Assembly (NCBI GenBank): GCA_003194525.1
Contig: NBIV01000036.1
Coordinates: forward strand, 124,001 to 188,000
From: Gracilariopsis chorda
Lineage: Eukaryota > Rhodophyta > Florideophyceae > Gracilariales > Gracilariaceae
Length of the DNA stretch: 64,000 nt
Reading direction: 5' to 3'
A program made the position numbers and the translations under genes. This document shows positions 5,863 through 61,740 of this stretch, in pieces. Within the stretch, counting starts at the first letter, position 1. Every line of letters starts with the position of its first letter. Under the pieces are notes generated by a model. It did not search any database and was not told where the DNA came from. It was given only the letters and a program-made list of their open reading frames with translations.

Positions 5863-7371
5863 TCATTGGAATGATTGAAGAGGTGCAGCCTTTATCTTAA
5901 GTAGCGTGAAGTTGTTCGCAAATGCTTGCGGTTTGAGTTGTTTGGTCATCATATCGGCTGGTTGTTGTTGAGATAGGACGTACTGGACTGCATTATTGTT
6001 TTGGGATACGTGATGGCGGAAATAGTGATGTTGGAGGTCTATGTACTTCCGTCGTTTGGATACACTTTGGTTCCGTGCGACGCCAGTAGCCGCTTGATTA
6101 TCAATGCTCATCGTTGATGGAGTGGAGGCTGGAAAGCCTAAAAACTGTAGTATGTGTCCAAATAGAACTGTGTCACGCGTGGCTGTGGTAGCTGCTGTAT
6201 ATTCCGCCTCATAGGTAGAGAGTGCTGATGAAGATTGCTTTCCTGATGACCACGACACGAAGTTGTCATTAAGGTAGTGAGTTGCACCGGACGTAGAGCA
6301 TCGTCTTTCAGCATCTCCTGCTAAATCTGCATCGGAGTATGAGTTGAGTTGCATTTCCTGCCCTTTGTGTGGGCTTCGGATATAATGAAGGCCGTCTGCT
6401 GCAGTGTGTTTCAAATTGCGTGCTGCGGATCTCACGTGTTTCCAATGGTGGTCGGTGGGATGCGTTAGAGCGGCAGCCAGTTTAGATGTTACAAACGCGA
6501 TGTCAGGGCGTGTGCCGTCTGCAAGCCAACGCAGGAGTCTGAATACGTGGACATATAGATGCTTAGATTGCGTCACTGGCCTGTCTTCTTCGCTGGAGGG
6601 GTGATATCCTAGACCCGAAGTGTACGAGGTAGTCTTGCTGTTAGCGTTTTGCAGGCCATTGACTGTGAGAAGCTTGGATACGGTGGTGGGTTGTTTTAGC
6701 ATAATTTCACCGCTTGGCTGTGTTGCAAAGTTCCATTCTAAGTACTTTGTTGGAGTTCCAGGCCTTCTGATGGAATAATTCTGTTGTAGTTGTGAGAATA
6801 GTGTGTCAATGAGTTGGCGGTTGGGAGCGGCTAACAGATAGTCGTCGATGTTGAGGCATATGTTTGTGTATTCTGTAGGATATCTGTGTGCAATGAAAAG
6901 AGCTGGATCATCAGGTGATTGGGTGTATCCGAGAGCTGTGAAATATTTCCATGCTTGCCGGAGAAAATGGTGACCAGCTGGTGGCATTCCGTGTAAGTTC
7001 AGCAATAGTCGACCACCCAGCTCTTGGTGTGCATAGGAACCATCAAAGCGTGGATGTTTTTTGACGTACACAGGGTTGAGGTGTCGATACTCTTCGTGGG
7101 TGAACGCGAATGTTATGTCGAAATGTTGAAGCATGAGGTTGTGTTCTACAGCAAGAGCAAAGATGAGGCATACGGAGTCCTTGTGTGAGCGATGTGCTGC
7201 TGTTTCGTTGGGATTAAAGTCTGCGTGAGGGATCATTCGGTCGTCTCCTACGGAGCACCTGGCTTTGTGCCCTATAACGTGGCTGCACTTGTTCCGCTTG
7301 TAACGGTATGTGATTGTTAATGAAATGAGGCTAAGGAGTTGTGTCTTAGGGAGCCATCTAACTGCGCGCAA
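5863..7371 (-). pseudogene. Reverse transcriptase/RNase H region of copia element 2
   Basis: A single 502-codon frame covers most of the reverse transcriptase and the RNase H of a Ty1/copia polyprotein. Visible landmarks are the IDDYLLAA active-site region, the SYSDADLAGD stretch that opens RNase H, STYEAEYTAA, and a C-terminal ADMMTKQL stretch typical of copia RNase H ends. It is the best preserved part of the element. The rest of the polyprotein lies in other frames to the right. Confidence 0.85.
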
Positions 7372-10218
7372 TCGGTCCAGCTTGTCCAGTTATTCATTTT
7401 GAGCTTTGCACCATTCAAGGGCGTCCGGGTATTGAGTGGCTTGTTTTCGAGAATCTGGGGATGGAGTGTGTGGTGTGATGGCTGATGGAGTTTTATGTGT
7501 AATGTGACTTTTGAATGCCCTTGATTGGCTAGCGGCGGGGTCGTCGATGTAGTGCAATACACTTTTCGCGACTTAGCGAAGATGCGGATCATATAAGGCA
7601 TGTGTCCCTTTGGTAATGGGAAGAATGGTTATGAGATGCAGTGTCCCTGCTGGGATGCCACGTGGCTGTCGATGCGAGCCTGACGTGTACCAGTACCTGG
7701 TAACCCGGAGGATATCGGGATAGATGGATGGTTGCATAGGACTTTCCCAGTATTATGTGCTATTTTAGTTTTTAATGTTTAGATTGTCTTCTTCATTAGG
7801 AGGCTCGTGCACCTTCCGATCTGGGAAGGGCCACATGTGTTGCACTGCACACCCTAGTGTTAGACACAGGGGTCGTGCCTACTTAGATGATGGCTCCTCG
7901 CCAACGTCTCCTCCAAGAAAATGTAACTGAGGCTCATCCTTTAGGATTACTCTTTGCAGAGTGTCGGACCTGGTATCTGCTGCCTAAGTGAGCTTCTTTA
8001 TCCTCCTCAAGAAGAACCACGACCGGATACGGTAGTATCAACCCCTCAGGGTCATCCAGGCCGTCTGGTCTGAAGTGTACCACTTTTTTTACTTTGTTTT
8101 GTTTCTTGTTATTGCTGTGTATCTGGGACATTATTCTGCCCCTGTATAGGGTTATTCCGTTATTTTGAAGGTGTTGTTGGATGATGTTGCTGAGATACTT
8201 CTTAGCATTGTAAGAAAGAAATATGGAAGGTGTACACCCAGTGGCATTTTGGAAGAGTCTTATTACGAAGGGCAGAACTTGATGTAGGGCTTTTCTGTTA
8301 GGCGGGAAGTCGAGGTAAAGGTAGCGACTGAAGAGTTCGATGAAGGTTGTCAAGTATCGATTGTTGTGTGTGGATGTATGTGGCATTGGTCCACAGATGT
8401 CACAGGTGATTACTTTTCCAAGTTGATACTTGTGGGAGCGTTTTGGATGTGGCCGTCGTTTGATTCTTCCCTGTAAGCAACCACTGCAGGATAACTTCTT
8501 TTGGCCTACGCCACATAGAACTGGATAGATTAAGTGTTTGGCGGCGACGAGTGAGGCTAATTTGGTGGGGGCTGCATGATTAAAGATAATGTACTATTTG
8601 TGAAAAGTGGCTGTTTTGTTGTCATGGAGTGTACGATGGGATGCCACTGGCTACTGCTAACGGTGTCGGTCGAAATGAAGGAGGTGCTTTTGGTGGTTTG
8701 GTGCTGATGTTACTTAGTTTAGTGGATGGGAGAGGAGCAGGGAGGCGAGCAAGTTTAGTTGGTTCTAACAGTATGAACGTGTTGGACGTTTCATATAGGC
8801 AGTTTTTCGCTGGACTCTGCTGCTTCTTGATGTTGAAAGTGTAGCAGTTTTTGGTCCAGGATGCACTCCAAAGGAGTTTGAAAGGTAGAGGCCTGCTGAG
8901 GATGAATGCATGGTGGGGTGTAAAGATGATTGGACCAAGGTGTTTGGATAGCGGGTGTACCGATATTAGATTACCCTGGAACTACTTACTGATCAACTTC
9001 TGAATCGTTACCTAGACACCAGTATCACTCATAAGGTTGATAATTCCTTTCTTCGTTGTTTTGGTAGTTGAAGCAGCCGTATGGGTTGTAACGGGAGTAG
9101 GGAGGTCAGTGTCGTCTGGCGTACTGTGCTGAATGATGGTTAGTTATGCTGTGGAGTCGAGTTTGTACGCATTCTGCGTTGTAGTGTTAAACTGGTCACC
9201 GGGTGGGAGGGATTCGAGTGCTTGCATGGCCTGTAGAATTTCGGCAGATATGGAATTAGTGTTGGAACAGGCTTGTTTGGCTGTGAAGCCAATACGTCCC
9301 GGTCGTGATTTTGTAGTCTGTAGCGCATCCATTGTCTCGTTAAATTCTTCAATAGCATTCCGAGTACCACTTCTTCTAAAGCAGACGTATCGACCACGAG
9401 CTTGGCCTCGACCTCGTTTTCCAGAGAACTTCTGTGCAGGTGCAGCAATGATGTGGCCAACGAATGTTGCGGGTCCCAGGGTGGGCATTTGTTGGTTTAA
9501 AATGCTTTCATATCATTCACAGCGGTGTTGTGTATCTTTGATCATGATTGGTAGAAAGTCGAGCATTAAATAGATAGTCTGTTGAGAACTACGACTGTCG
9601 TTAGCCAGGTCTTTCTGGATGTAGTCGACTGTGACTCTTTCATCAGATATTCTGGGAGTATTTGCCAGATTTTGTTTGGGGCCAATAGCCAATTGTGCTG
9701 CAATAAAACTTTTCTATGGTTCCGGTGCGATATAGATACAGAGCTTTGGTTTTGAGGCTAAAATAGTTGGTCGCGGAATGGTTTTGGATAATTTGACGAA
9801 TAGGATGGACAAAAAGATGAGGTATCTGCGTGAAAATGTTGGGGTCCGCGAGAAGATCAGTAAAGTTCTGCGTAGAGCTCTTTTTTATGATGCCGCGAAT
9901 ACCAGCCATTTTTATGTGATTTTGATTGGTAACTGGTGTGAAGGATCTTTCAAGAAGATGTTTTTCTGGTCTTTACTTAGAATGTTGCCGAAGTATTGTT
10001 ACTTCCAAACAAAGTTGTAGGGTGTTTGTTCTACAAGTTCTTTCGTAAAAAACTACAAAGAAGTTGTGGAGGTTGTGTATGCGGAAGGATCGTAGTGCTC
10101 GATTGTAAAATGGCGTGCACGGTGTGTCTTTTGAGTCGTTGGTTACGGGAGTGACGCTTGAACCCTGGATCGATGTGGTGGGTATTTCGGCGTTGCGCTG
10201 CCGCGATGGTGTCCATAA

Positions 10219-18795: not shown

Positions 18796-19429
18796 GAAGC
18801 GCGCTCCACCCAGTTGAATGGGTCAAAAAGGATGTTAGGCAGGAAGAGTAGAAACAATTTCGGAGCTTTGGAGCAGAATCGTAGATTGGGCGAAGAGTGT
18901 CTGTGCAGGCTATGGGGTTGTTGATGGGCCGGAAAAACGCAATACCTGCACAAACGTCGCAGGAAGAGATGGAAAAAAGAGGTACATAACTTTGTGAGAG
19001 CCATGGACTGATTCATTCGAACTCGAACGAACCTGCAAAACATTGGCTGAGAGCGGAAAAACGAGAATTCTTTTCGCAGTTAGCCGTTTTCTTCCTCAAG
19101 CCGAAAGTGGCAAGACGAGCTCAGCTGACATCCCGTTAGACGGAAAGTGCCTTAGCTCCTCGACACATGAATAACAGTTATTTTTTCGAATGCCCTTTTT
19201 TTGCACACTGTGCATGGTTTTGCACGTAATTAAAAGAAAACAGGCGGTTGGTCACCGACTGAACCGTGCACTGCAAAACACCCCACTAATAGCTCTGTTT
19301 TGAATATTTTAATCCTTTGGCTCCCAGAAATTCTTAGCGGATATATAAAGCAAAAGTGACTGGTCAATGTAATGCCTTCAAGGACAGATCTCGTATTCAT
19401 TAAAATAGGCTATCCGTCATACGATTGTG
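18796..19429. other. Spacer between the PCIF1-like gene and copia element 3
   Basis: May hold further 5' exons of the PCIF1-like gene (18796 to about 19043) but none could be fixed. 19100-19429 is AT-richer and holds no recognised feature. The last 19 bp resemble the sequence just after the element's 3' LTR. Confidence 0.35.
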
Positions 19430-19679
19430 TGTGACACATACACGTGTACACTGTCATGCCAAGCCGCCACCCCGGCCCCTCCCGCGCTCCTCCCGGCGCG
19501 GAGGTGCAAGGGAGGTTTTTGAGGAGCGCAACCTAAAACGAATAAAAAAGCGCCAGCACGACGCTAGCGTGGTAAGCGGAAAGCCGAAGGAATACGGCGG
19601 AATTACGTCCCTCTCGGTCCCCCGCGTTTTCGCCTCTGACAATCCAACCCTTCAAACCCAGCGATGTCTCAGCCTTCCA
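19430..19679 (+). repeat. 5' LTR of copia element 3
   Basis: 250 bp from TGTGACACAT to AGCCTTCCA. It matches 26458-26705 over its whole length with many substitutions. The apparent gag start codon (19664) lies inside its last 16 bases. Confidence 0.9.
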
Positions 19680-22600
19680 CAGTTATGGGCCCAGGCCCAA
19701 CGCTCTCTAAACCACTTGCACCGACTGATCCGTTGATGTTTAAACCAGAAGGCGATCTACAAGAATATCGTCACAATATGACTCGCTGGGTGGAAACAAT
19801 TCAAGCTGCAGCTGAAACCAGCACGGATCGCTACATTTGCACGTCATTTGTACGACAGTGGACTACCCCGAGAACAAAAATCTATCGTGGATGAAGCACA
19901 GGCCAAAAAAATTATCGACCACAAGCAAAACGATCAAATTGAAGGAATTAGGCAGATTGTACAGCTTATCGCAATTGACCCACCTATTGCAGTTGTTACT
20001 AGGCTGATATTGTCCATCATTCAGGTCACTCAATGTAAGTGTCGTCGTAATGAGGATCTTAGCGTCTTTGTTTCAGATCATCTGATGTATGTTGGTCTTT
20101 CGAAGTCCGCCCAAGTTAGCGAAGTCTTGGTAATCACCCTGCTGTACAAAGCCATGCTTAGCAAGGATACCATGACAATCGAAAAGCTTCAGCTTATCTC
20201 CTTAGCAGAAGCACGTCAGAGGTCTGAAAGTGAATCCGAATTATCCATGTCCAAATCTTCTCACGAATCACTTCTGACGTGTATCCAGGAGATCACTGAA
20301 TCTTATGAGAACGACGATGCCACACCACAGCCCTCCGAAAACGCTAATGCCGTTTGTGGCAAGGCCACTGATTTGGTTAACGGTGCTCGTCAACTCATAG
20401 ACCGCACCTCCGAACTGTTCAACTACATAACGGAGATGAAGAACCAGCAGTAAATCACTGGTGACATGTTTTTTACCGGCGAACGCTGCAAGCTCAACCT
20501 TGATGATGCATTCAAGGTAAAAAGGAATCTCACCTTCACTCCCAAGAAGTCCGAAAAGGCCTACACCAAGGCCGACATGGAGAACATGGTCGGACAATGG
20601 GTTCAACAAGCTCTTGCAGCCTTTCAGAAGCGAAACGAGCCCAACCGTAACTCTCGCTCTGCGAAAATGCCTCGCAACAGCGGCATTAACAATGGCAGAC
20701 TGCCTTCTAATCAAGGCTTCTTGGGCAAGAGAAACCGACTGCAGCCCGAATTCTGCTACGACTGTGGTGACCCAGGGCATTGTCGTGGAGATTCCAAGTG
20801 CAAGCACCCTAGCTTCCTGACCAAGGAGATCAGAAGCGAAGCAGAACCATGAAGCAATCCCAAGGATACTAAGATGGACAGAAGCAACCGGGCTTTTCGA
20901 CAGGGCTGCAACCCCTCACAACGCAGTCATCTCTAACTGCCGGGGAAGGAGCCTATTCAGATTTTCTCCCATTCTCCAAAGATCCAATTCTGGTCGTCGA
21001 TCGCGGCTGTCCAAAAAGTGTTGGAGGGCTTGAAGCTATAGCCCACCTTTGCGTTTCGTTAGTGGTTGAGCTCGTCCTTCAACAATTCGATTCCCAGCCC
21101 TTCCTCCATGGCTTTGGAGAGAACTGCGCTGACGCAAGGCCCACCTTCGCCAGGTGGATCTTTCGTGGTCAAGACGAGAACGACGTTTCATTCTCTATTC
21201 GCTTCTACGTCGCAGAAGGCACTTGTCCCATTCTTCTTGGACTAGACGTTCTGTCTCATTTCGAAATACTTGGGAACCTAAATTGGATCCAGGTCCCTAT
21301 CGATGTCCTCTCTAATGAGAGCCCTGTCATCCTGCCGACGTATTACAACGGAACAGACCTGTCGAAGCGCAAAAATTTGCTGCGAGTACCATCCAGCAAC
21401 GCTTCAGTCAAGTAGCTCGTATCCCGTACAAAGACCGCTTCGTCTCCGCGAAAGCTCATCGAAAATGAACAACGTTTCGCTAAGCGTTTCCACCTGTACA
21501 CCCACTTCCCTCCGAAGGACATGAAGAGAATCCATAACAGGGCCGATGTGCTTACCAGGACCCTCGAGTCTCTATTGTCCGACTCGTTCTCATCATGTCA
21601 AAAATGTGCCTCGACGGGAAGGCTGCTTGCCTCTCGAAAGGTATCTTTTGTTCGACTTTTGACGGCTTTAAACAGGCACGTACAAGTAGAATTCATGTTT
21701 ATCGCCGAATTAGGGAACCTTCCCATCCTCTACATGAAGGATGCCGCTACGGGCTTCTCCGCGACAGCTCTATTGCTCTCGAAGACGATGAAGGAAGCTT
21801 CTAGGAACTTCGTCGTGCACTGGATATCGGTCAACGACCCCCCAGCAGAGATCTCCGGGGATCCCAAGTTCTCCACAGATGACTTCGTCACCATGTGTGC
21901 GTCTCACTCCAACAAGTACTCTGCAAGGCCAGCGCGCCGTCACAACAAAACGGGAGTAGCCGAATCTTCTCACGAGGTGATTCGATACCTCGCCCAGCGG
22001 CTTCTTAAGGACCGCAAGTTCGATTCGTTTAACAGCTTTCCGGTGCATTCTGACCAGGAGATCTTGGCTCGCGCCGTTTTCTTGAAAAATACGATGCTTG
22101 GCTCCAAACTCCTCTCCTGCCTTGAGCTGGCTCGGGGATACCGTCCAGCTCTCTCGGACATTGATCAAAGCCCCGTCAGCAAGGAGCTATTAGACGCATA
22201 TCACGAGAAGACCGCCCGCCACGCTCTTCACACCTTCCTGCGTTCTAAGGATGTCAAAAGTCTGGACCGGACGTTGCTATCTCCTGGAACAGCCATGTAC
22301 GTCTTCAAGAAAGGAGCGAAACGAGGCCAGTGGTACTCCGGATTCGTGAAGGAGGTGCACCTTCACTATGCAATTGTGTCTACTACGAAAAAGCGTAAAG
22401 GCTTCAGCCATACTGTTGCATATGAAGACCTCCGCCTCAAGCCACGATCCAACCCCCTCCGTGACATTGAAGAAATAGAACTTGGCTGGCATGAGTTCCC
22501 CAAAGAGGAACGGGAGCAACCTCCGCCCGAGTCTCCAACTTCACCTGCTCCAAACGACACTTCAACCAATGACCTCCTTGAAGTAACGGAGGAGCCACCG

Positions 22601-24424
22601 AGCATCTTTGAACACGACGAACGTGGCCTTAACGATTTTGCCGAGTGGAACGACCATCACTCAAGCATGACATATCTGACGCAAAACCAGCTCGTGCGCC
22701 TAGTCAACTGCCCGTCGAAAGACATTGGAGACTACGCTCTAATGAAGAGCCCTTTGCCACAAACTGCTCAGCTAACATCTGCCAAACAAACTGTCCTCCG
22801 AGAGCTATACGAATGCCTAGGGAATGAGCCTCTTACTGAGCACAAGCTGCAATGTGCGCCCAAGTGGTTGCTCTACGAGGCTATCTAGAAGGAGGAGCAG
22901 TCCTACCGCGAGCGGAAGGCCTTCCAGCCTGTATCGATACGCTCTCTGCCGCCATTGGCAAAACTCATCTCGTTACACCACTTCTTTGTCACCAAGCATG
23001 ACGGCGAGAGTAACACTCTCAAGCTCAAGTGCAGGCTTGTACCTCATGAAAACAACGATAAACAGAAGCACGACCTTCGATCCGATTCTTCAACTGCACA
23101 GTTCCGAACCATCCGTATCGTACTTTCCCTCGCTTCAATCTTCCACTTCACACTAGCCTCGCTCGTTGTTAAATCCGTGTACTTGTAAGCAGGCGAGCTC
23201 CACAGAGATGTATACGTCCGCCCGCCAAGAGGCTGGACTCACTACACAGATGAAGTGTGGAAACTTTTGGCCCCAGCGTACGGACCAGTGGACTCCGGCC
23301 GTCTGTGGCAGCTCTGCGTTGAAGAATGGCTCTTTGAGCAAGGTTTCGCGTCCGTCCCGGGTGTTTCCCAACTCTTTCTCCTGTGCAAAGACTCCGAACT
23401 TCAGTTGATGGTCGCCATGGCTGTCAATGACATGATATTCGCCGGAAATCCTTCGGTGCTCACCCATTTCCGGGAGGCAATAAGCGCTAAGTTCGACATC
23501 GGAAGTTTTACCTCCGGTTCGGATGTAGTCTTCAACTGACTGTTCATCCGCCAACATTCCGACTTCTCTATAAGCGTGTCTATGGAAGAATTTGCGGACT
23601 CTATCAAGCCGATTGAGTTGACACACGTGCATAAAAAGGAAAACGACGCCCAATGCACCAAGAAAGAACTACGCCACTTCCAAAGGTTGACAGGGATGTT
23701 GAACTTTCTAGGGCATGGAATCCTTCCTCAAGCATCCTTTGTTTCTAGCAATATGCAACAGAACGTGTCACGCCTTCGTGTCTCACACATCCGCCAATTG
23801 CACTCTGCTTTAGGTCACGTGAAGTGTTTAAACCCAAAGCTCACCTTCCGCTCACTTGGTGAATCGTATACTCCCAGCCGAGTCTCAGTCACTATAGTCG
23901 CGCTCAGCGATGCGTCAAGTGGCACTGGCTCTTATGGGCAAACGGGCACACTATGCTGCCTGCTCTTCCATTCGGACGTAAATCTAGTCCAGCACTATGT
24001 AGATTGTCATACTTCAAAGCAACAACGAGTTTCCTTCTCCTCTGCAGGAGCAAAGATTCTTGCTGCTGCTCACACAGTGGACAGGACCATCCAACTTGCA
24101 CAGGTACTCCCGTCTGTCATGAGTTCGAGCTGTGAAACCACTAGACCCATGCTGCAATTGTTGGTGGACTTGCACGGATTGCTCTCAACGATATCTACCC
24201 TCCACGAACAAAAGGATTATCGCTTGAGACCAACAGTCGCCCGCCTGCGAGACTGGTTCGAATCGAACGAGATCAACAAGCTAAGTTGGATACCAGGTCC
24301 ACTTAGCCTCGCAGACGCGTTGACGAAGATCAATCCTCATGCGTTCAAGATGCTCAACAAATCTATGAACGATGGTGCAATTCCCGATAGTTTGCTCAAG
24401 TTTATCGAGGTCCCGCAAGTTTAA
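19664..24424 (+). pseudogene. gag-pol region of copia element 3
   Basis: Contains gag, protease, integrase, reverse transcriptase and RNase H in Ty1/copia order, spread over several frames. The longest frame (21521-22888, 455 codons) holds the pre-integrase zinc motif (SCQKC), the integrase core and the region leading to the reverse transcriptase. Confidence 0.85.
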
Positions 24425-24477
24425 AAGTCCTTTATGTTTCGTCACTACAATTTGGTTGTAACCTCCCTCGCCTTAGC

Positions 24478-25848
24478 CTACCTTTGTCGTTTGCAATGAC
24501 GACGTTTTGACGAATATCGGTTTCCTTCACTGGAACGATGCAGCTCTTCCACCTTGCGGACCTCCATCACACGTTCAAATCCATCAGCATTACCAACGAA
24601 GCATCTCAGTGCTTTCACGCTCAAGCTCATTGGAAAATGCTTAACAGCATCCAAAATCATGCGCCACGTCGCGTCAATGCATAAAACATGATCCACTTTT
24701 CGCGCGTGCAGCCTCACACGAAAGACACCACTTGATTGGGCTACCAACCATCCAACCTTACTCTCACAATGTTTAGCGCCAAAGCGGATACGATTGAAAA
24801 TCACCCGCTTTGCGTGCGTGTTAGTCCATTGTGCAGCGCTAAAAAAAGACAACATCGGTGGTAGAGCCTCTTTGAGCATCACTTCTGTTGCGTACTCCTC
24901 GCTAATCATAAGCGCAATCGCGTTACGAAGTGAAGCTTGTAAGCACAACACCTTTGTGTTGCAAATTAGCATTCGATCCTCTTTCAGTAGAAATAATTCT
25001 GTGTCTGGAGTTGCAGCGCGAGCAGCCGGATTCGACACACGCACAGGTACAAAGGGGTGCTGCAAGCAATATTCATCCAAAGCATCAATTGCCCCAGGCG
25101 CCGCTCGCGGCAAAATCTGGTTCGCGTCGGTCAATGAGTCATACTGCAGGAAAAACTGTGTACCACCTTTCCAGATCAGGGCCTGACCAAGCGCGTTGCA
25201 CAAACCTGGCCCGTCCAGTGTGTGCAGCCGTACTTCATGCCAACCCCAATGCGGCTCATCGTGATTACGTGCATAATACGCAGGGCCTTGAATGCAACGC
25301 ACTCCTTGCGCAGATCGGAGAATACTGTCACGCAGAACAAAAACAACAGCGTCCACACTCCATTCTTCCCCACTAACCTCATCGTGGTACAAGCCCCAAC
25401 GCGAGGCCGTTTGGTGATCTAAGGATGCATTTGGGCGTGCCACCCACCAGTTAAGTATGGCCCTCCCTGCTGTTGTTAGCAGACTCGCCTGCCTCACAAC
25501 CCGATGCCGACCGTCGACATGTTCCAAATGGAATCGCACACGACCACGATAGTCACTACTAGTGATTGACACGATTTACGCCATAGTCCATTCAGAACCA
25601 CCCTGTTCTGTTGACGGATAGTCAAGAAGAAGAGTGGCGTCTATTCTTTTTTGAGCAACATATTTTTCTGCACGACGACGTACTACGTCTCCCAAGTCCC
25701 GTACATCTACTCCAGCACAACTCGTCTTTGCGCCACGCGCGACCGTCGCTAGCTTCTTCTTCTTGAACTGATACAGACTTCCTCCATCAGGATCAATACT
25801 TGCGTCGAACTTCTTCTCCACCAAACACTTCACCTGCATCACGATCAA
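24478..25848 (-). pseudogene. Antisense reading frame inside copia element 3
   Basis: Two adjoining minus-strand frames (24478-25572, 364 codons; 25576-25848, 90 codons) fill the 2-kb gap between RNase H and the 3' LTR, against the direction of gag-pol. The composition is protein-like: a Lys-rich N-terminal part, then a mixed globular part with phrases such as HWGWHEVRLHTLDGPG and VDHVLCIDATWRM. I recognise no domain. Further minus-strand coding-like sequence may continue to about 26075. About one break is apparent. It may be an accessory gene of the element or a captured host gene. Confidence 0.5.
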
Positions 25849-26440
25849 AAAAGAAGGTTAGTATTAAGCGCGCCTTTGAAGGCCCTCCAGAGCCCAGAGC
25901 AATCTGTAGATTGACGCGCTCTTTGCAAGGACGCTCTATCGACTATGGTCCCTCGGATCCAGCGTTGCACTGTTTCAATGCTTCTGTCGCCGCCGATGCG
26001 ACCACAAATATGCGAAAACCACGTCGCTTTCACCCCGATCCATAACGGTGCCACATCTGTCAAGTACCCGAACAACTTTCGTTCCGTACAGAACCTTTAG
26101 TGCTGCACAAAGCCTCCACCGCTTCCTGCACGGAGCCCACCTTCTCTCCCAACTCCATCCATTCTCCACAAACATGTCGCCTTCCAACTCCCCCGATCCC
26201 TCCGCCTCCCCGCCCTGCCGCCCTCCTCCAGGCCCCCCCAGGCATCCCAGCCGTGCATTCCCTTTCCCATGCGCTCATCACGTTGCGCTGCGGTCTACAG
26301 CTCGCCTTTCACGGTGCTGGTTCGCATCGCCTTTGTCGCTATGCAGCTGCCGTTCTTGCCGTCGCGCTGTCACCACATGCGCTAGACATCCAGCGCCACG
26401 CGTGGTCCCAATCGTTTTTACTTCTCGTCTCCTTCCTTTT

Positions 26441-26457
26441 GACGAGAACAGGGGGGG
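26441..26457 (+). other. Polypurine tract of copia element 3
   Basis: A purine run ending in seven G residues touches the first base of the 3' LTR, the expected position of the plus-strand primer. Confidence 0.75.
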
Positions 26458-26705
26458 TGTGACACATGCACGTGTACGCTTTCGTGCCAAGCTGGGACCC
26501 CGGCATCTCCCACGCTCTTCCTGGCGCGGAGGTGCAAGGGAGTATTTGAGGAGCGCGACCTAAAACGAACAAAGAAGCGCCAGCACGACGCTGGCTTGGG
26601 GAGCGGACAGCCGAAGGAATACGGCGGAGTACGTCCCTCTCGGTCCCCCGCGTTTTCGCCTCTGAAAATCCAACCCTCCGAACCCAGCGATGTCTCAGCC
26701 TTCCA
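26458..26705 (+). repeat. 3' LTR of copia element 3
   Basis: 248 bp, TG...CA, direct copy of 19430-19679. It is followed by an 18-bp sequence nearly identical to the 19 bp that precede the 5' LTR. Confidence 0.9.
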
Positions 26706-27361
26706 TACCGTCATACGGTTGTGTCACTGCGTGCAAATCCCGTGCAACATAGTGCACGACGCATGTCATGCGTCTGCTCTTGTAGAAACGGTCTTGATCA
26801 GTCTACCCATCAGTAGCTCAGTAGCTGAGGCTTGAACGTTCCCTTACTGCAAATTCTACTACACAAATATTCTCAGCTGCCAAATCAATGGAACAAACGA
26901 AACGATTCAATGCCAAAAAAGAGATTTTCTGCTTGACAAAAATCCAAAGGAGTGCACAAAGAAGGTATGACATAACACATACAATAGCACTCTAAGAAAT
27001 GTTCTTGATTGTTTTCTAACAAATAGAACGAATGCAATATGGCCTTCTAGGACATCACAAATTAAAGACTGCACAAATAAAAACCGTTTAATAAAATTAT
27101 CAAAACAATCCATGTCCATGAAGAATTCCAGGATTGAAATATAGCTGCAGAACTGTCTAAAGCAAAAAAAAAGGTGACATATCTACAAGAAGCAAATATA
27201 TGTGAAGACAAGGACACAAAGCCAAGAGCTGCGATTATATAAAGATTATAAAGATTATAATGTGTTGTTACAAAAGAATGAACCAGATGAGAAACAAACT
27301 CGGAATACACAAATTTTTCTCAAATAAGAGGATACTCCATGATATGGGAGACAATGAACGA
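26706..27361. other. Spacer between copia element 3 and the Harbinger-type element
   Basis: Begins with the 18-bp flank repeat of the copia element (26706-26723). The rest is AT-rich, with several minus-strand frames of low complexity and no likeness to a known protein. Confidence 0.4.
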
Positions 27362-27374
27362 CTCCGAAAAACAC
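27362..27374 (+). repeat. Left terminal inverted repeat, Harbinger-type element
   Basis: CTCCGAAAAACAC; pairs with 30024-30036 with one mismatch. Similarity beyond this is patchy. Confidence 0.6.
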
Positions 27375-27490
27375 GAATTGTGTACACACAACATTTGTCG
27401 AATATCTAATCATTTCTCTGTACCATTTAATGATCATGCACTGAAAATATAGGTGCAAATGACTCCACACGACACAATTGTGGACCAACT

Positions 27491-28620
27491 TTGTTGTTTG
27501 GAACACCCACAGGCCGCTCAAGCGCACTTCTAATCGATATGAACCCTCTTTTCTTTCTTCACCAACTAGAGCGCTCAAAGAAAACAGGATCAATACACTT
27601 TCGAATAGGACTCTCTCTCACTGGCAAAAGGCGTCGTGATCATCGAATTACTCGGAAAGCGTTACTAAGTCTATGTTCATCAGCGTTTACCATTCTGTTT
27701 GGCTCAGGATGCGATCAGTCCCTAACAACTCTATGTGGTTTTGACCAAAAATCGTTTGAATATTTACGTTCCTTGTATGAACCACTTTATAGAAGCTACA
27801 CCCCGTACAGTTCAAATGGTGACATTTGCATCATTCGTACTACAGCCAAAGCACGAGCTCGTCTGAGATCTTTAACAGTGTCGCATTGTCTTGCATTAAC
27901 GCTTTCCTGGTATCAAACTAGAGGATCCACGATGGTATTTTGTGTTATATTTAAGATAACGGCCTCCGTTTGTTCTATGTTTCTGCGTTTTGGACGCCGA
28001 ATTTTGCTGCGAGCGTTGCAACATGATGAAAATGCTAGAATATGGATGCCAAACGCTGAAGGAATCAGAAGATTTAAAGCTGCTGGAAGTGAAAAATACT
28101 CTCTTCTTGGAGACTTTTATGCTAGGTCGGATGGATTAAAGCTTTACCTGCAACAAACTGGGAATGCTATTATTCAAAACATGTTCTACAACGGATGGCA
28201 GCATGATCATTACAATGCATGACTCAGTTGTCGCAGAGTGGGGAAAGATATATAAATCGCGTTTACAAGGAAAGTGGTGCCACCCGTGTTGTTGACTCAG
28301 ATTTTAGCAAGGGACATAACCCATTTCTCGTAAAATCGTCTCAAGAGCTACCCATCACGACCAGCAGGACTGAAATTCTGAAGTCACGAAAAGCAACGTC
28401 TGCCCGACAGGCTGCTGAGTGGGGCATGAGAGCCTTCCAGGGTTCATTCTCTCGTTTGAAGGGCTGCTTCGTTTACGAGGAACGTGGCGAAAGAAAGCTA
28501 GTTTTGAACTTAGCCCTGCGCCTCATTAATGCTCGAACGCCACTTGTGGGTATCAACCACATACTGCACACCTTCATGCCCCACCTTAGTGTAGATGCGA
28601 ATTCAGTATTGTTCAACTAA
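27491..28620 (+). pseudogene. Harbinger-type DDE transposase, internally deleted
   Basis: The first part (to 28222) contains LCGFDQKSFEYL, the first catalytic Asp in SDGLKLYLQQ, and MFYNGWQHDHY. The second part (28219-28620, another frame) contains the second Asp in VVDSDFSKGHNPFL and a probable catalytic Glu in AAEWGMRAFQGSF. Between HDHY and MHDSVVAEWG the family normally has some 20 to 30 more residues, so a small internal deletion and a frame change are apparent. The first in-frame ATG is at 27539. It cuts DNA for transposition in intact relatives; this copy is probably inactive. Confidence 0.8.
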
Positions 28621-28639
28621 CTTGTTTTTAAGGCACTAC

Positions 28640-29792
28640 TGAGAATCACGGCTTGGGGCTTGCCCTTTTGCAAGGAACATCATAAACATTCGCATAAACG
28701 ATTTGCGACTTTGTCTGTCTTCTTCTAGCTGTTTGTGTGCTTCCCCTCTTTCGTCCTGACGCAACCTTCTCTCTTCTTTCTGCTGCTCCAGCCTAAGGCG
28801 GTCCTACTCTTGCCTTCTCACCCTTGCCTCTTCTCTTTCTTTTTCTAATCGCTGTCTTTCCGCCAGTCGAAATTCTCTTTCTTGTAAGAGAGAAGCTTTA
28901 CATTATGCCAGAACATCTTTGTCCTCTTTCTCGGGTCACCTGGCTCGTTTATGAACTACTGGATACATGGGTACGGTTGCGGGTGGTGTATCAGACCGTG
29001 CGGGAGGTGCTGTTTCTCCGTCTTCACCGCTCTCTTTCTCCTGATCTGGGTTCTTCACTGTTTGGAGATCCTCGTCACATTCCTCTCCGGAAAATACTCC
29101 ATCGACATGGCTGTCTTCGTCATCTCCCAGATCAATTCGTTCTGTCATGTCCTTTCTTATTTTTTTAGCCCTCAGCACTGACGGAGGTATGCGTGGATCT
29201 CCCGTTAGAGCTGCCTTCCTATACAGTAGCGCAAATTTTCTCCTCAAAGAATCCGTACTCTGGCTCTCTTCTGAATATTGCGCTTTGTGCGTCGCGGTGA
29301 CGACTTCCCATTCATCTCCACCAACTGGAAGTTGTTCTTCAAGAATTTATAACAAACTATGCAACTCTTTCTCGGTAAATGTTGCTCCTCGACCGGCCAA
29401 TTTGGTGCTTTTTTAACGCTCTTGATATTGTGTTTCCTCCCTCTGTTTGCAATTGTCTTGCTGCGGTGTGGGTTTTTTTTATGGTTTACAGTCTTTTCTG
29501 ATGGTGCTGAGCTTATGTTGAGAATCTGAAAAGGTGGATTTGAAGGCGTGCTGCGATTGACAATAGTCAACGGTGGTAATGTTAGATTGTCGGATTTTTC
29601 GGCCTCACGGAGCCTTTCGTACTCTACGCAAGAGGTGTTGATGCAGTCTTGACCACTTGGATTTGGGTTGCATGGAGGCTGGGTGTCAGACGTCCGAAAA
29701 GGCTGGATTTCATCGCCGTTGGGGTCGCCTTGTACCATGTTGGCGAGCCGGAGTGTCTTATGTTGTCGCCAGATACGCAAAGTGGCAATCAA
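28640..29792 (-). pseudogene. Myb/SANT-like protein of the Harbinger-type element
   Basis: The minus strand encodes LRRKFALLYRKAALTGDPRIPPSV (28936-29247), the trihelix-type Myb/SANT block found beside DDE_Tnp_4 transposases, then an acidic linker and, below 28936 in other frames, an Arg/Glu-rich coiled-coil C terminus. Upstream (29244-29792) lies a low-complexity N terminus, and the start of the Myb block is split between two frames. In related elements this protein binds the ends and brings in the transposase. Confidence 0.65.
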
Positions 29793-30023
29793 ACGACAAG
29801 AAGGGAAGCAGAACGATGGACGGGTGGTGTGTTGCTATGAACAGCGGTGGAGGCCTGTACGTGTGCTGCGTTGTGTTTGGGGCTGCTTGGAAGCAAAGAA
29901 GATTGCACGTTTGTGCGGGGGCACAAACAACTACACCCGCGTCTGAACGTCGAGCAAATTGCTTGTTTGTGTACGCACAAATATGGGCGATTTATGACCA
30001 TTGTGCACACACAAACTGTCTTT

Positions 30024-30036
30024 GTGTTTTTTGGAG
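30024..30036 (-). repeat. Right terminal inverted repeat, Harbinger-type element
   Basis: Reverse complement reads CTCCAAAAAACAC, matching 27362-27374. Confidence 0.6.
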
Positions 30037-30299
30037 TTACTCAGTATTGCAATGAAGATTTTACGGTGACAGATTCCAAACCATTTTTTCTCAGCTTCCC
30101 AAGTCATAGTAATGCAGTGCTGCGCAAAAACGCGTATCGTCGTTACACATTTCTTAGGCACGGTTTGCTAGGTAAGCGCAGAAGAGTCGAAATTCGTCAT
30201 TCTGTTTTTGAAGCAATTAGAGAAACGCATCTTGATCCACCATACTGAAATGTGGGATTCAAAGAGCACTCATGTTTTACGCTACTGAATGAAGAGAGT
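30037..30299. other. Spacer next to the piggyBac fragment
   Basis: No gene seen. It may be the 3' end of the piggyBac copy that starts at 30300. Confidence 0.3.
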
Positions 30300-31191
30300 T
30301 CACACCTGTCGAAGAGAAGTGGAGCTTGTAAAGAATTTATTACGCTGATGTTTCGATCTAGTATGCATGATAGCGGTTTCAGCAGCTTCAGAAAAATCAA
30401 TACGATTATAACGCAGGTCATTCAAGTTTTGGAATAATTCAAAGCTGTTCACATGGAATGCAGACCTGCAAGTGGAACATGCGTATATGGATTTGTTCTG
30501 GCGTTTATCTGTTCTAATTGTCTTACACAAATAACATTGTCCTTGCTTCTTATCAACACTTTCAAGCAATACATGAGGTTTCTTCGTTTTTCTCTGGTTC
30601 TCCGTTGAGGGTGATAATTTTGAATGCAAGGGCCTTCTTGCAGTGTTGAATTCCAATAACGCTCTTGCCAACTACTCCGCAACCCGGCGTGTAAAATTGT
30701 GCACATTTCATACATGTTCCGGTGCTGTAGAGTTTTGCATTATTGCGTACGCCTTGAAAATGCTTGTGTTAATAAAGAAAGTAAACACACTCATTGAAGC
30801 ATGCAGTTCTTTCTGCAAGATCCAGTTAGTTGACTTCAACTGCTTGAAGCGATCAATGGCATTCATGAACGTATTACACGCCACAATATTTGCAGGAATC
30901 TCGATGGTCGTTCTGTGAAGCGTTTCGTTCCAAACCAACCCTCAAGTAGAGCTAGTGCATCTACACATTCGACATCATGGCTAGTTTCTTCAATTATTCG
31001 AGAACGAAGAGTGAGGTCAAATCGTTTGTGTAGAATACTACAGTCTTTCTGTCTTTGACCACGAGGTAGTTGGCGTGTGGGGCAATGGTTGGTGTTTGAT
31101 TTGGCTCTTCAGGTTTTTCAAAGACTTGGCATAAAACCCACGATCCACGAATCTTGTTCCGAAGAAGAGCAATCGCCTCAGTTACAGCCAT
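30300..31191 (-). pseudogene. piggyBac transposase, C-terminal part
   Basis: Three minus-strand pieces in different frames read through the C-terminal half of a piggyBac (DDE_Tnp_1_7) transposase: APHANYLVVKDRKTVVFYTNDL (30994-31191), NTFMNAIDRFKQLKS...ELHASMSVFTFFINTSIF (30708-30938) and the Cys-rich tail CYLCKTIRTDKR...YACSTCRSAFHV (30300-30671). The N-terminal half and first catalytic Asp are missing, so it is 5' truncated near 31200, just before the inverted units. The 58775-60658 copy is a relative: both share FYTNDL, the MN-IDRF/MSSIDRF block and the Cys tail. Confidence 0.8.
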
Positions 31192-31475
31192 CCGATTGAT
31201 TCCATCGATGTTATTTATCCATACCGCTCACAGTACTTTCATCTTATTATCTGTAATGTGAAAGAGCTGGCCTACTAGAGTGTGAAGTGTATAGAATTTA
31301 TCCGTAACTACGAATCTTTACGTGTTTCAATTGATAGCTGTCTGGAACTGATGGGTCAATTGGTGACACCATAATGCCGATGTACTAAATTTGTTAATAA
31401 CTTGTTCCTCCAGTTTTCGGTTAAAAACACCTCTGAGTGTCCGGAAGAGTGAATTATATGCCACTTAGTGTATTG
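31192..31475. other. Short spacer before the left inverted unit
   Basis: Nothing recognised; perhaps more piggyBac remnant. Confidence 0.3.
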
Positions 31476-32276
31476 CAATGCCCGGAAGCGGGAGTGCCCC
31501 GAAAGATATTCGAGATCTTTCCTCGTTAGAGGTGAGCCCAGTTAGGTAGAGCCCTCCCAGGAATGGCACGACTATGTCGGGTTGTAAGGCCGAGGCCGCC
31601 CGTCGCGACTTGCGCAGGGAGGTAGAGATGAAAATCAGGTATCCGTAGGAGCGGTGTGTGAGGGTGGTCATCCTCTAGGGAGGTGAGCCCTCCACGTTAG
31701 TGGCGCATGCGAACACGACCCGTGGCTAGCGGGAAAGCGACCCTGTAAAGCGAAAAATAGGGGGAGCTGAGTCACGAGTGTCGTAAAGAAGACTAAAGGC
31801 AGTGCTGGTAATTAAAACTGATACAAGGCAAACAACAAGACCGTTGGAATAACAATCCGAATACTCGGGTTCTTTTAGACAGGCAAGGGGGTTAGACTTC
31901 CCGTATGCGACGGTGCTTCCCTCCAAAGAGGAGTAGAGAACACGCGAAGGCGGTGAGGTCTAGAGCCAATTCCCCAGATTGGAATCCCTTTTTGGGGAAG
32001 GTTTCCTGGTGGGACGGCAACTCGCCGGCGCAGTAAGTACGAACCATCCCAAAAATCTGTGTAAAAATAATAAAAAATAATAATTAAATTACTCCACTTT
32101 GGTGGTTCATGCCCACTACTGTGGCCAACCGCCGATTGACTCTTCCGTGTCCCATGTGTCTAATCCAATATTAGTGGTTGTAGTTCATGCAATGACTACG
32201 TTATCGAAACATTCGAGAAATCAACCAAGTACTAAAAATCGCTCCCTGAGGGCATTGCACTTCAAGTTCTATTCGC
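31476..32276 (-). repeat. Hairpin-rich unit, left arm of a large inverted repeat
   Basis: About 800 bp that match the reverse complement of 33428-34258 along their whole length, roughly 70 percent by eye, with strongly conserved blocks: GGGAGGGCTCTACC, a CTGGGGAATTGGCTCTAG hairpin, an AATTATTATTTTTTATTATT tract and GGCCACAGTAGTGG. The unit itself ends in TGCAATGCCC outside and GGGCATTGCA inside, i.e. short terminal inverted repeats. No protein is encoded. Serial short hairpins suggest a structured RNA or a foldback-type element. Confidence 0.7.
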
Positions 32277-33427
32277 TAAAGGTGAGGGCGACGAGGAACC
32301 ACCTCCAGCAACAACCACTTGGCGGGCTTAGACCGATGATTCGGAGTTCTTGCACGAAGTGCTTCCACTTCCACTCGAGCGTGCTGAACAAGCTCGAGGT
32401 AGGTGATTCTCAGCTTGTTCTCGCCGTAACGAGTGACAAGACTCCAGATTGTCCGGCCAAGGCCATCCATTAACATGGTGCAACGTTACCCTGCGGGGTG
32501 TACATTCCCACAACGGTGGAAGACCTTGTTAAGGCGCACCGAGTAGTCGGTTTCCGTCTCGCCTGAGCATTGACGAGTATCCCTTTTTCCTCCGCTTTGT
32601 GAGTACTATAGAGGGCCATGCCCTGGCACACTCTATAACCAGAGTTTAGAAACAGATTCATGAGTCGTGCTTCTCTATCTTTCGTGTTTAAGTGTCTTTA
32701 AACTAGGCCTCGGTTAAGAATATGAAGATATGAGTTGCACAACCATCGGTTTAGTATGGAACTGTTTCACAGTTTTCGTGTTGTGCGGCAAGAATAGAAG
32801 TAATATTTAGCTTTTGTCATCATTATGCTCATTTGCAGTGTTCAGATCGTCTACATTACATTCGCATTCGTACAATTACTCTCTCTGAAATCTGAAGTAG
32901 AGTGACTATACAGTTCGTATTGAAGTCAATGCCTTTTTATCATTCTCTAGTCACGCAGTTGTTTCCATGCCCTACTGTTTTCTATCCGACAATATTCGGT
33001 GTTCGGGAAGTTGCTGAAGAGATCAGTAACTTTTCGTAAGAACAGTTGGGAGTTATAGGACGATTATAAAATCATTAAAATTCGAGACCGGATTACTAAG
33101 CACTAGAAATTCAATCACTAGTGATGTAAATTTGACATTGTCCTCATATGTGATGAAATTTAAACTTTTCTATAAAATAAAAATTTGAAACTATTTCTAA
33201 AAATTTGTATACCATATTAATCGGAAACAAAAAGGCTTTTTAAGGCATTTAACAGTCATTAGATTTGACATAGATTTTTGTACGGTTTCTTTAAAAAATC
33301 TTTCCTTAAGAGCTTAGAAGGTAAGAAAATTAATACTACTTTTTGAATTTTCAGTAATGTATTTTCTACAGAAATGTATTTCAAGAAGCTATATTAATAA
33401 AGTTTGGTTAGATTGTTCGGAAAGGGT
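32277..33427. other. AT-rich spacer between the two inverted units
   Basis: 1.15 kb without coding signal. The left third is mixed, the rest very AT-rich. At 33118-33160 lies a sequence starting CTAGTGATG and reaching CCTCATATGTG that resembles the left end of the CTAG-bounded transposon family. Confidence 0.45.
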
Positions 33428-34258
33428 TGAAAATTGAAGTGCAACGCCCTCAGGGAGGGATTCTAGGTACTTGATCGTTTTCCCGATATTATCGGTTGTG
33501 TAGTGTGTATATGAACTACGCCCCACAATGGTGGGTATGGACACGTGGGACATGGTTTTGGGTCAATTGGCGGTTGGCCACAGTAGTGGATGTTGCCACG
33601 AAATGTGGAGTATTTTAGTTAATATTATTTATTATTTTCACACCCATTTCTGGGAAGCTAGTACTTAGTGCGACGGCGCACTGCCGTCGCAGCAGTAAAC
33701 CTTCCCCAACAAGGGACCCCAACCTGGGGAATTGGCTCTAGTTGTTGCCGCTTGCGCGCGTGCTCTACTCCTCCTTGGAGGGAAACGCCGTAAACCACGG
33801 GACATCTAACCCCCTTGCACATCTAAAGAAGCCCATGCTTGGGAGTATAAGTGTTCCAATCTTATTGGTGTTTCGCCCTGTATAGGGAGTCCTGTCCACC
33901 GGCATTGCCGTATCTGTTCGTCGCTCTCGCGACCCACTTCGTCATTCCTTCCTCCTCTTCGCCCGTCCTTTTTTCCCCTTTTTTTAGGGTAGCACCTCCG
34001 GCTATCCGCGGCCCTCGTGTGCACATCCGCTCACACACCCCCACTTACGTCGAAACATACCTCTACTGAGGATCACACCCCGCTCACGCGGATACCGATT
34101 CTTCGCCTTCACCTCCCTGCGCGAATTGCGACAGGTGTCCCTGGACTTACAAACTGGCTTCGCCGTGACACCTCTGGGAGGGCTCTACCCAACTGGGTTC
34201 ACCTCTTGAGAGGAAGATCCCGAACGTCTTTCGGTGTTTTTCCCCTTTGGGGCATTGC
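33428..34258 (+). repeat. Hairpin-rich unit, right arm of a large inverted repeat
   Basis: Opposite-orientation partner of 31476-32276. It begins near GTGCAACGCCC and ends in GGGGCATTGCAC. Its last 70 bases form consecutive hairpins: CCCAACTGGG, CCTCTTGAGAGG, CCGAACGTCTTTCGG and CCCCTTTGGGG. The corresponding stems of the left arm differ in sequence but several still pair (for example CCCGCTTCCGGG). No protein is encoded. Confidence 0.7.
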
Positions 34259-34577
34259 ACCACAAAAATTTATTACGATGGTTATTATTGCAAGTACTAT
34301 AAGTTTATTATGCTTTTGAAGCTGTAAAAAAGGGTTCTATTTTTATCCATATTTAAATATTCCAAAATTTAGTTTTCTAATCTGCGTTAAAAGTTTATGC
34401 GCTTTACAAAATTTCCAGATAACAGTGCCTATAGCAGTCAATTTATATATATTTCAAAGTTTTTACGCTGTTTTTTTGAGGAATATTGAAATTTCTTTGT
34501 AGATTGCACATGGTAGAATAGAGTTTTTTTGAAAGCAAGCACCAGCAGGTAGTAATTTGATTTAAGTTATGGTTCTC

Positions 34578-34620
34578 TATTCTCATATGAGGTCAGCTAG
34601 CCGGTCGGATAGACACTAGC
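34578..34620 (+). repeat. Solitary right end of the CTAG-bounded piggyBac-like family
   Basis: CTCATATGAGGTC followed by GGTCGGATAGACACTAG (ending 34619) matches the right end of the copy at 49249 and the reverse complement of its left end at 46417. It probably closes a non-autonomous copy, perhaps beginning at 33118. Confidence 0.6.
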
Positions 34621-35174
34621 CAAAACTTTTACGACTTTCTTGGAAACGTTTCTGGTTTTTACACCAATGAGTTTGGTTTGTAAATCTAATATATATATCA
34701 AAAGAAAATATCTTCTCCAGCACACAACTGTCAACCAACCGTGTAGTAGTGCGATCGGTATCTACCCACTACCAAATCGACAACTGTGCCTTCTAAAGTA
34801 TTTATATATCTGTTAAGATTTCGGGAGCGAAAGTGTTATTTGTTTTTCGTAGCTTTTTCTAAGCGTAACCATTTTGGACATCAGTCATGTCGCGCCATGA
34901 CATGTCACAGTGCGCTCTGGATCAAGAAAGGGTGAAACTCACATCTATGTGACACATCGTATGTGTATCTACCTTTGATACCCTTGGATGTGCTTCTGCG
35001 CACCTTATGCGGCCGGTAGTACTCCATGCATGCTCCATCGAGCGATTTCCATGCTTTCTGTCCTGGTCTTTCAACAGTGACAGGTACCAACGGTAGAGCG
35101 GGAGAGAGAACAATCCTTTGCGCGTTTTCTTAATAACCCAAAGTTTCTTGAACGTTTCTGGTTGACTACAAACG
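34621..35174. promoter_or_regulatory. Upstream region of the AAMP-like gene
   Basis: About 550 bp, AT-rich on the left. It should hold the promoter of the WD40 gene. No clear core element or gene was seen. Confidence 0.35.
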
Positions 35175-61129: not shown

Positions 61130-61740
61130 GCATACTCGTTTTGCGCCCCCAGACCATCTCCCGCTTCTCGTGTTGCGCTCCCAAACCGTCTTCCGCCCCC
61201 CGGCAGCCCGTGAACACTCCGCTCTCTCCGCGCTGGACTTGCGCCTTCTCGTGTTGCGCTCCCGAACCGTCTTCCGCCCCCCCGGCAGCCCGTGAACACT
61301 CCGCCCTCTCCGCGCTGGACTTGCGCCTTCTCGTGTTGCACTCCCGAACCGTCTTCCGCCCCCCCGGCAGCCCGTGAACACTCCGCCCTCTCCGTGCTGG
61401 ACTTGCGCCTACACTTGTGAACACTCCGCCCTCTCCGCGCTGGACTTGCACCTACTCGTGTGCACACTCCGCCCTCTCCGCGCTGGACTTGCGCCTACTC
61501 GTGTTGCGCTCCCAAACCGTCTTCCGCCCCCCGGCAGCCCTTGCACACTCCGGACAACCACACACACTGCGAACAACGTTCTCCCCCCGGACAGCCCGTG
61601 CACATTCCGCGTTCCCCGCGCAAGACTTGGGCCTACTGGTGTGGCGCTCTCAAACAATCTCCCCCCCCCCCGGCAGCCCGTGCACACTCCGCCATCTACA
61701 CGCTGGACAACCTTCCCCCGCCTGCGCCCATTGTTGAGTC
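61130..61740. repeat. GC-rich tandem repeat, 82-bp unit
   Basis: Units starting GCCCGTGAACACTCCGC begin at 61206, 61288 and 61370, exactly 82 bp apart and nearly identical. On either side are shorter, diverged units of 30 to 45 bp around CTCTCCGCGCTGGACTTGCG. C-rich on the plus strand with Cn tracts of 6 to 10. Because 82 is not a multiple of three, open frames shift from unit to unit; those frames are not genes. Confidence 0.85.

Follow-up and report, generated by a model that had tools for sequence, protein, structure and literature searches.

A Giant Inverted Repeat in Gracilariopsis chorda Read as Facing LTRs of Two Related Ty3/Gypsy Retrotransposon Families

Introduction

Among oomycete Ty3/Gypsy retrotransposons, those of the Chronos group carry their chromodomain next to the integrase, at the 3' terminus of pol, and have a second, archaeal-type RNase H besides the Gypsy type (PMC5348765). 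In this study, we explored a 64,000-nt stretch of the red alga Gracilariopsis chorda (GenBank assembly GCA_003194525.1, contig NBIV01000036.1, positions 124,001 to 188,000), hereafter the window, in which an initial annotation, made from the letters alone, had described two noncoding units of some 800 bp facing each other as a giant inverted repeat. The two units belong to two retrotransposon families, A (left arm) and B (right arm), which fall among the Ty3/Gypsy chromodomain elements (chromoviruses in the broad sense) and are like them in their TG...CA LTRs, 5-bp target duplication, tRNA PBS and PPT. Both families also follow the same order of reverse transcriptase (RT), integrase, and chromodomain; the anatomy tested shows no differences from these elements, and both copies in the window are noncoding remnants. 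As in Chronos, families A and B are Ty3/Gypsy elements whose chromodomain adjoins the integrase. The family B frame gave no Pfam match to a second RNase H such as Chronos has, at E-values up to 10, although the 133 residues that separate its RNase H from the zinc finger of the integrase carry no assignment. Our findings support a model where the inverted repeat is almost certainly the product of two independent remnants of related Ty3/Gypsy retrotransposons, lying in opposite orientation by chance. LTRs of related families, once independently inserted, can mimic a giant inverted repeat, and no new biology is implied.

Results and Discussion

The inverted repeat itself, first reported as diverged yet running from end to end, is borne out by alignment. 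The two arms are 69.6% identical over about 841-845 aligned positions, along their full length and in opposite orientation (E about 5e-90); the alignment scores 319 bits, whereas no more than 24.7 bits were reached when one arm was shuffled 100 times by mononucleotides. In direct orientation, arm against arm yields an 11-nt match only. The exact units extend over 31469-32264 on the left (796 bp) and 33435-34264 on the right (830 bp), both TG...CA; the short inverted ends originally proposed, TGCAATGCCC/GGGCATTGCA, are indeed present, though as inner sequences, with the true termini a few bases further out. Similarity is uneven by block, reaching 79% over 174 nt and, at best, 96% over 28 nt. 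This 28-nt block (32113-32140 / 33562-33589), conserved between families whose LTRs are some 70% identical overall, may be a cis-acting site. Comparison of the window with itself revealed no further significant copy of the arms, and viral contigs searched with a 21-mer common to both arms gave 0 matches. An Rfam scan of the window returned 0 families at gathering score, and with no match at these thresholds the reading of the arms as RNA genes was dropped. Three stop-free frames of at least 90 aa overlap the arms, and the one tested (32084-32470, 129 aa) had no Pfam match.

Searches of the genome from which the window comes (91.3 Mb, 1,081 contigs) place both arms in abundant families. The common 21-mer has 1,751 genome sites with at most two mismatches (896 forward and 855 reverse; 0 for a reversed control). 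Among the matches listed, the right arm has at least 39 other copies at 95-97% identity, plus one short fragment at 93%, and the left arm at least 39 others at 87-91%, plus three more at 72%; the best other copy is 97% identical for the right arm and 91% for the left. Many right-type LTRs are, in element orientation, followed by AAGTGGTCTCCCGACCTAGAATCGG, the PBS, or preceded by a tract like TCTTAGGGGGGGGATA, the PPT. In a right-type flank sample made up of the best 30 of 41 matches, window copy included, a script detected the PBS at 11 of the 30 loci (one also with a PPT) and the PPT only at 9 (PPT in total, 10/30); a further 8 showed a 5-bp duplication with neither PBS nor PPT, and the remaining 2, with none of the three by script, both display a PPT-like G-run by eye. 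The left-type sample comprised 8 fetched loci, again including the window copy, and here the script found a PBS at one, a PPT at one, a duplication at three (two of which share flanks), and none of these at three, one of which has a PPT-like flank by eye while another is the left arm itself. The PBS pairs with the 3' portion of a gene called as tRNA-Leu by ARAGORN; its complement, extended into the T-loop, occurs at 2 genome sites, with an ARAGORN tRNA-Leu at one and no tRNA at the other. The arms, which had been said to match no known family, are instead LTRs of Ty3/Gypsy retrotransposons; similarity to a known family, with LTRs given as an example, is what the initial annotation had itself named as refuting its proposal.

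Coding matches come from element copies elsewhere in the genome. On contig C476, two family A LTRs, 94.7% identical and 10.7 kb apart (start to start), enclose an RVT_1 match followed by Integrase_H2C2 and rve, and by Chromo. A family B copy on C3, between two LTRs 7.4 kb apart, gave RVT_1, RT_RNaseH, Integrase_H2C2, and Chromo matches, and no rve (integrase core) match in the tested frames; it is not full-length, about 3.4 kb of the gag region (from the PBS region to the RT) being absent relative to the family A element of C476. The chromodomain (PF00385) is matched at 3.2e-7 in family A and 3.2e-10 in family B, and the family B RT matches PDB chain 7q5b, the Ty3-G Gag-Pol polyprotein, with an E-value of 8.9e-61, and PDB 4ol8, which we take to be Ty3 as well, with 8.6e-62. 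Given the domain matches of the C476 and C3 copies and the RT match to Ty3-G Gag-Pol, families A and B are related, abundant Ty3/Gypsy retrotransposons with a chromodomain. The family A internal piece of the window (32266-32581) is matched at 75-79% about 1.4 kb inside other right-type LTRs, like in left-type elements. On C3 (252900-260700, locus L051), two neighbouring family B copies share one LTR (L022); about 3.4 kb of the gag region is missing from both, with an identical junction, and they are perhaps a gag-less sub-line of family B.

The right arm (33435-34264, plus strand, TGAAGTGCAACGCCC...GGGCATTGCACCACA) is a solo LTR of family B, because a perfect 5-bp target-site duplication, AAAAT (33430-33434 and 34265-34269), lies directly outside its TG...CA termini on both sides and a script found neither PBS nor PPT in its flanks. 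It interrupts an AT-rich repeat, whose left part covers 33122-33434 and right part 34265-34613 (both plus strand), and target copies free of the LTR are observed directly: all 5 of the 5 loci fetched show its two parts adjacent, at most 50 nt apart or overlapping, with no room for an LTR (at L057 the parts overlap by 4 bp; at L056 the left part aligns over a short piece only). A family B retrotransposon inserted into the AT-rich repeat, duplicating AAAAT, and would then have been reduced to a solo LTR through LTR-LTR recombination, a step we infer from the standard mechanism by which solo LTRs arise.

The AT-rich repeat (33122-34613; about 657 bp, excluding the solo LTR and one AAAAT) has relatives at 68-87% identity in 34 other places for 33130-33433 and 35 for 34265-34619, among the matches listed. 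It is itself an insertion, flanked by a 6-bp duplication CACTAG (33116-33121 and 34614-34619); the paralogous locus L063 has one CACTAG at this site, the sequence running straight through, and the two sides overlap by 6 bp in L062 and are 10 bp apart in L064. Adjacent to it lies low-copy native sequence (32582-33121, plus strand), collinear in the paralogs with 30068-31465 and 34614-34838. In three paralogs both arms are absent, and each arm answers to a breakpoint of its own, the two being set apart by native DNA; a fourth, L065, matches on the left side only. The 1.15-kb spacer between the arms is made up of three pieces, each with relatives of its own, and the searches made found no second place where it occurs as a whole. 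The locus can be read as a nested stratigraphy, from the low-copy unit through the AT-rich repeat (6-bp duplication) to the solo LTR (5-bp duplication). The low-copy unit spans 26708-34838, with 71-83% identity to C75 and C1, to C99 from 30359 on, and partly to C188; in the window it is broken by several insertions, including one of 2.7 kb (27354-30067) that contains a DUF6818 frame and has relatives at 85-94% on C13, C44, and C10.

The left arm (31469-32264, minus strand, TGAAGTGCAATGCCC...GGGCATTGCAATACA) is, judged by its 87-91% similarity to family A copies, an LTR of that family; against the LTR pair on C476 its identity is 88% and 87%. Its outer flanks, CTTAG and AGTTC, form no target-site duplication, and the script detected neither a PBS nor a PPT of its own; with all three missing, any account of the LTR it represents and of the deletions it went through is tentative. 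A 316-bp internal piece (32266-32581, minus strand) abuts the LTR, the PPT and about 8 kb of internal region being missing between them. This piece occupies the gag position: in the C476 element its counterpart (L050:3300-3615, 87% identical) follows the 5' LTR and precedes the reverse transcriptase, as part of an open frame of 410 aa with no Pfam match. Its segment 32271-32581 was scored in at least 39 other places in the genome. At the site of the left arm, three paralogous loci contain 455, 462, and 461 bp of other sequence, absent from the window, and the paralog breakpoints fall such that the left flank extends to 31464/31465 and the right flank begins at 32583/32585. The most fitting reading of the left arm is a family A element, now truncated, that would have taken out about 460 bp of local DNA as it inserted or decayed, and the absence of a target-site duplication is attributed to this truncation with local deletion. 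The hexamer AAGTGG, two bases beyond the 3' end of the arm, resembles the start of the PBS. A PBS remnant was mostly rejected at this position, where GCCACT is found in 2 of 4 paralogs; AAGTGG seems mostly native sequence, perhaps not wholly.

A variant of this explanation takes the left arm not as the 3' LTR of a single element, but as an LTR once shared by two elements in a tandem array (LTR-internal-LTR-internal-LTR) that deletion has cut down. Internal sequence set directly at the 5' side of the LTR, without a PPT, and AAGTGG past its 3' end would agree with such an array, and a shared LTR is known elsewhere in the genome (L022, with both PBS and PPT). We nevertheless consider the array unlikely, as AAGTGG is largely native by the evidence of the paralogs and a single element with deletions takes fewer events. 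With the left arm as a truncated single element, the family A copy would have inserted about 1.2 kb away from the family B copy, in the other direction and probably earlier, deletions then leaving one LTR and 316 bp of internal sequence. The identity of the best other copy, 97% for the right arm against 91% for the left, suggests different insertion dates. The deletions and the order of insertion are, in this history, what we infer.

Why exactly two such remnants should face each other calls for little beyond their abundance. With 1,751 cores in 91.3 Mb, a random model predicts about 24 opposite-strand pairs at the core distance seen in the window (1,456 bp) or less. Among the 90 adjacent pairs given by the first 100 of the 1,751 sites (taken in contig order, not as a random sample), 2 are opposite-strand pairs within 1.5 kb, against about 1.2 expected at the same rate, one facing like the window's and the other back to back, and their distances differ. 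Below 15 kb, the spacings of opposite-strand pairs (9/90) are scattered; direct pairs under 15 kb (26/90) peak at 9.08-9.10 kb (7 pairs) and 10.6-10.9 kb (7 pairs), as expected for the LTRs of full elements. Of the right-type loci other than the window's, 29 in all, one (L020) likewise contains two family B LTRs on opposite strands, their spacer without a match to that of the window; at L037 an LTR fragment abuts in the opposite sense, at L015 a further LTR lies in the same sense, and at none of the 7 other left-type loci was a second LTR found within 1.5 kb. The resemblance of the pair to an 800-bp inverted repeat is due to the shared ancestry of the A and B LTRs, about 70-75% identical. In three stretches, on C757, C729, and C1068, LTRs of families B and A stand side by side in direct orientation, almost without a gap (L069, 1777-3368; L070, 1744-3336; L071, 1685-3279). 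A mobile composite dimer was rejected for these: since their identity of 99.0-99.7% extends into the flanks, they are one locus copied, not repeated mobilisation.

It is conceivable, if very improbable, that the LTR pair, where transcribed through, would give rise to an imperfect hairpin RNA feeding small-RNA silencing of both families; even so, the origin of the pair would still lie in chance, and the gained function alone would be new. We give practically no credence to a single foldback (long inverted-terminal-repeat) DNA transposon at 31476-34258 with a 1.15-kb internal spacer, one of the two origins initially offered. Arms similar over their full length and opposite in orientation are what such an element would show, yet the outer flanks of the pair, CTTAG and AAAAT, form no duplication around it, the right arm has a perfect duplication private to itself, and the arms come from different, diverged families that each have many separate copies, with reverse transcriptase and integrase matches in related element copies. 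Nor do arms and spacer ever recur together in the searches made, the pieces of the composite spacer having different partners, and the paralogs show native DNA between two separate breakpoints. The other origin offered, two copies of an independent unit, holds in so far as solo copies do exist elsewhere; the unit is, however, a Ty3/Gypsy LTR and not an unknown, non-autonomous element. Equally negligible is a pair of non-autonomous, noncoding MITE-like elements with TGCAATGCCC as short terminal inverted repeats, for which the inverted ends, the lack of protein, and the many copies might speak, but against which a PBS or PPT adjoins the unit at 20 of the 30 loci of the right type according to the script (22 when two seen by eye are added) and same-strand pairs recur at 9.1 and 10.6-10.9 kb, the one read of the second kind, C476, enclosing a pol region.

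Two independent Ty3/Gypsy remnants remain our reading of the facing arms, and the window holds traces of other repeats. Direct repeats of 251 bp, 89% identical and 7 kb apart, bound 19429-26705 and enclose an RVT_2 match of Copia type; this is probably what is left of a degraded Ty1/Copia element. The minus strand has a second RVT_2 match (5866-7389) and an integrase match (2561-3430), and 61164-61708 is a tandemly repeated region with several overlapping self-matches at 73-93%.
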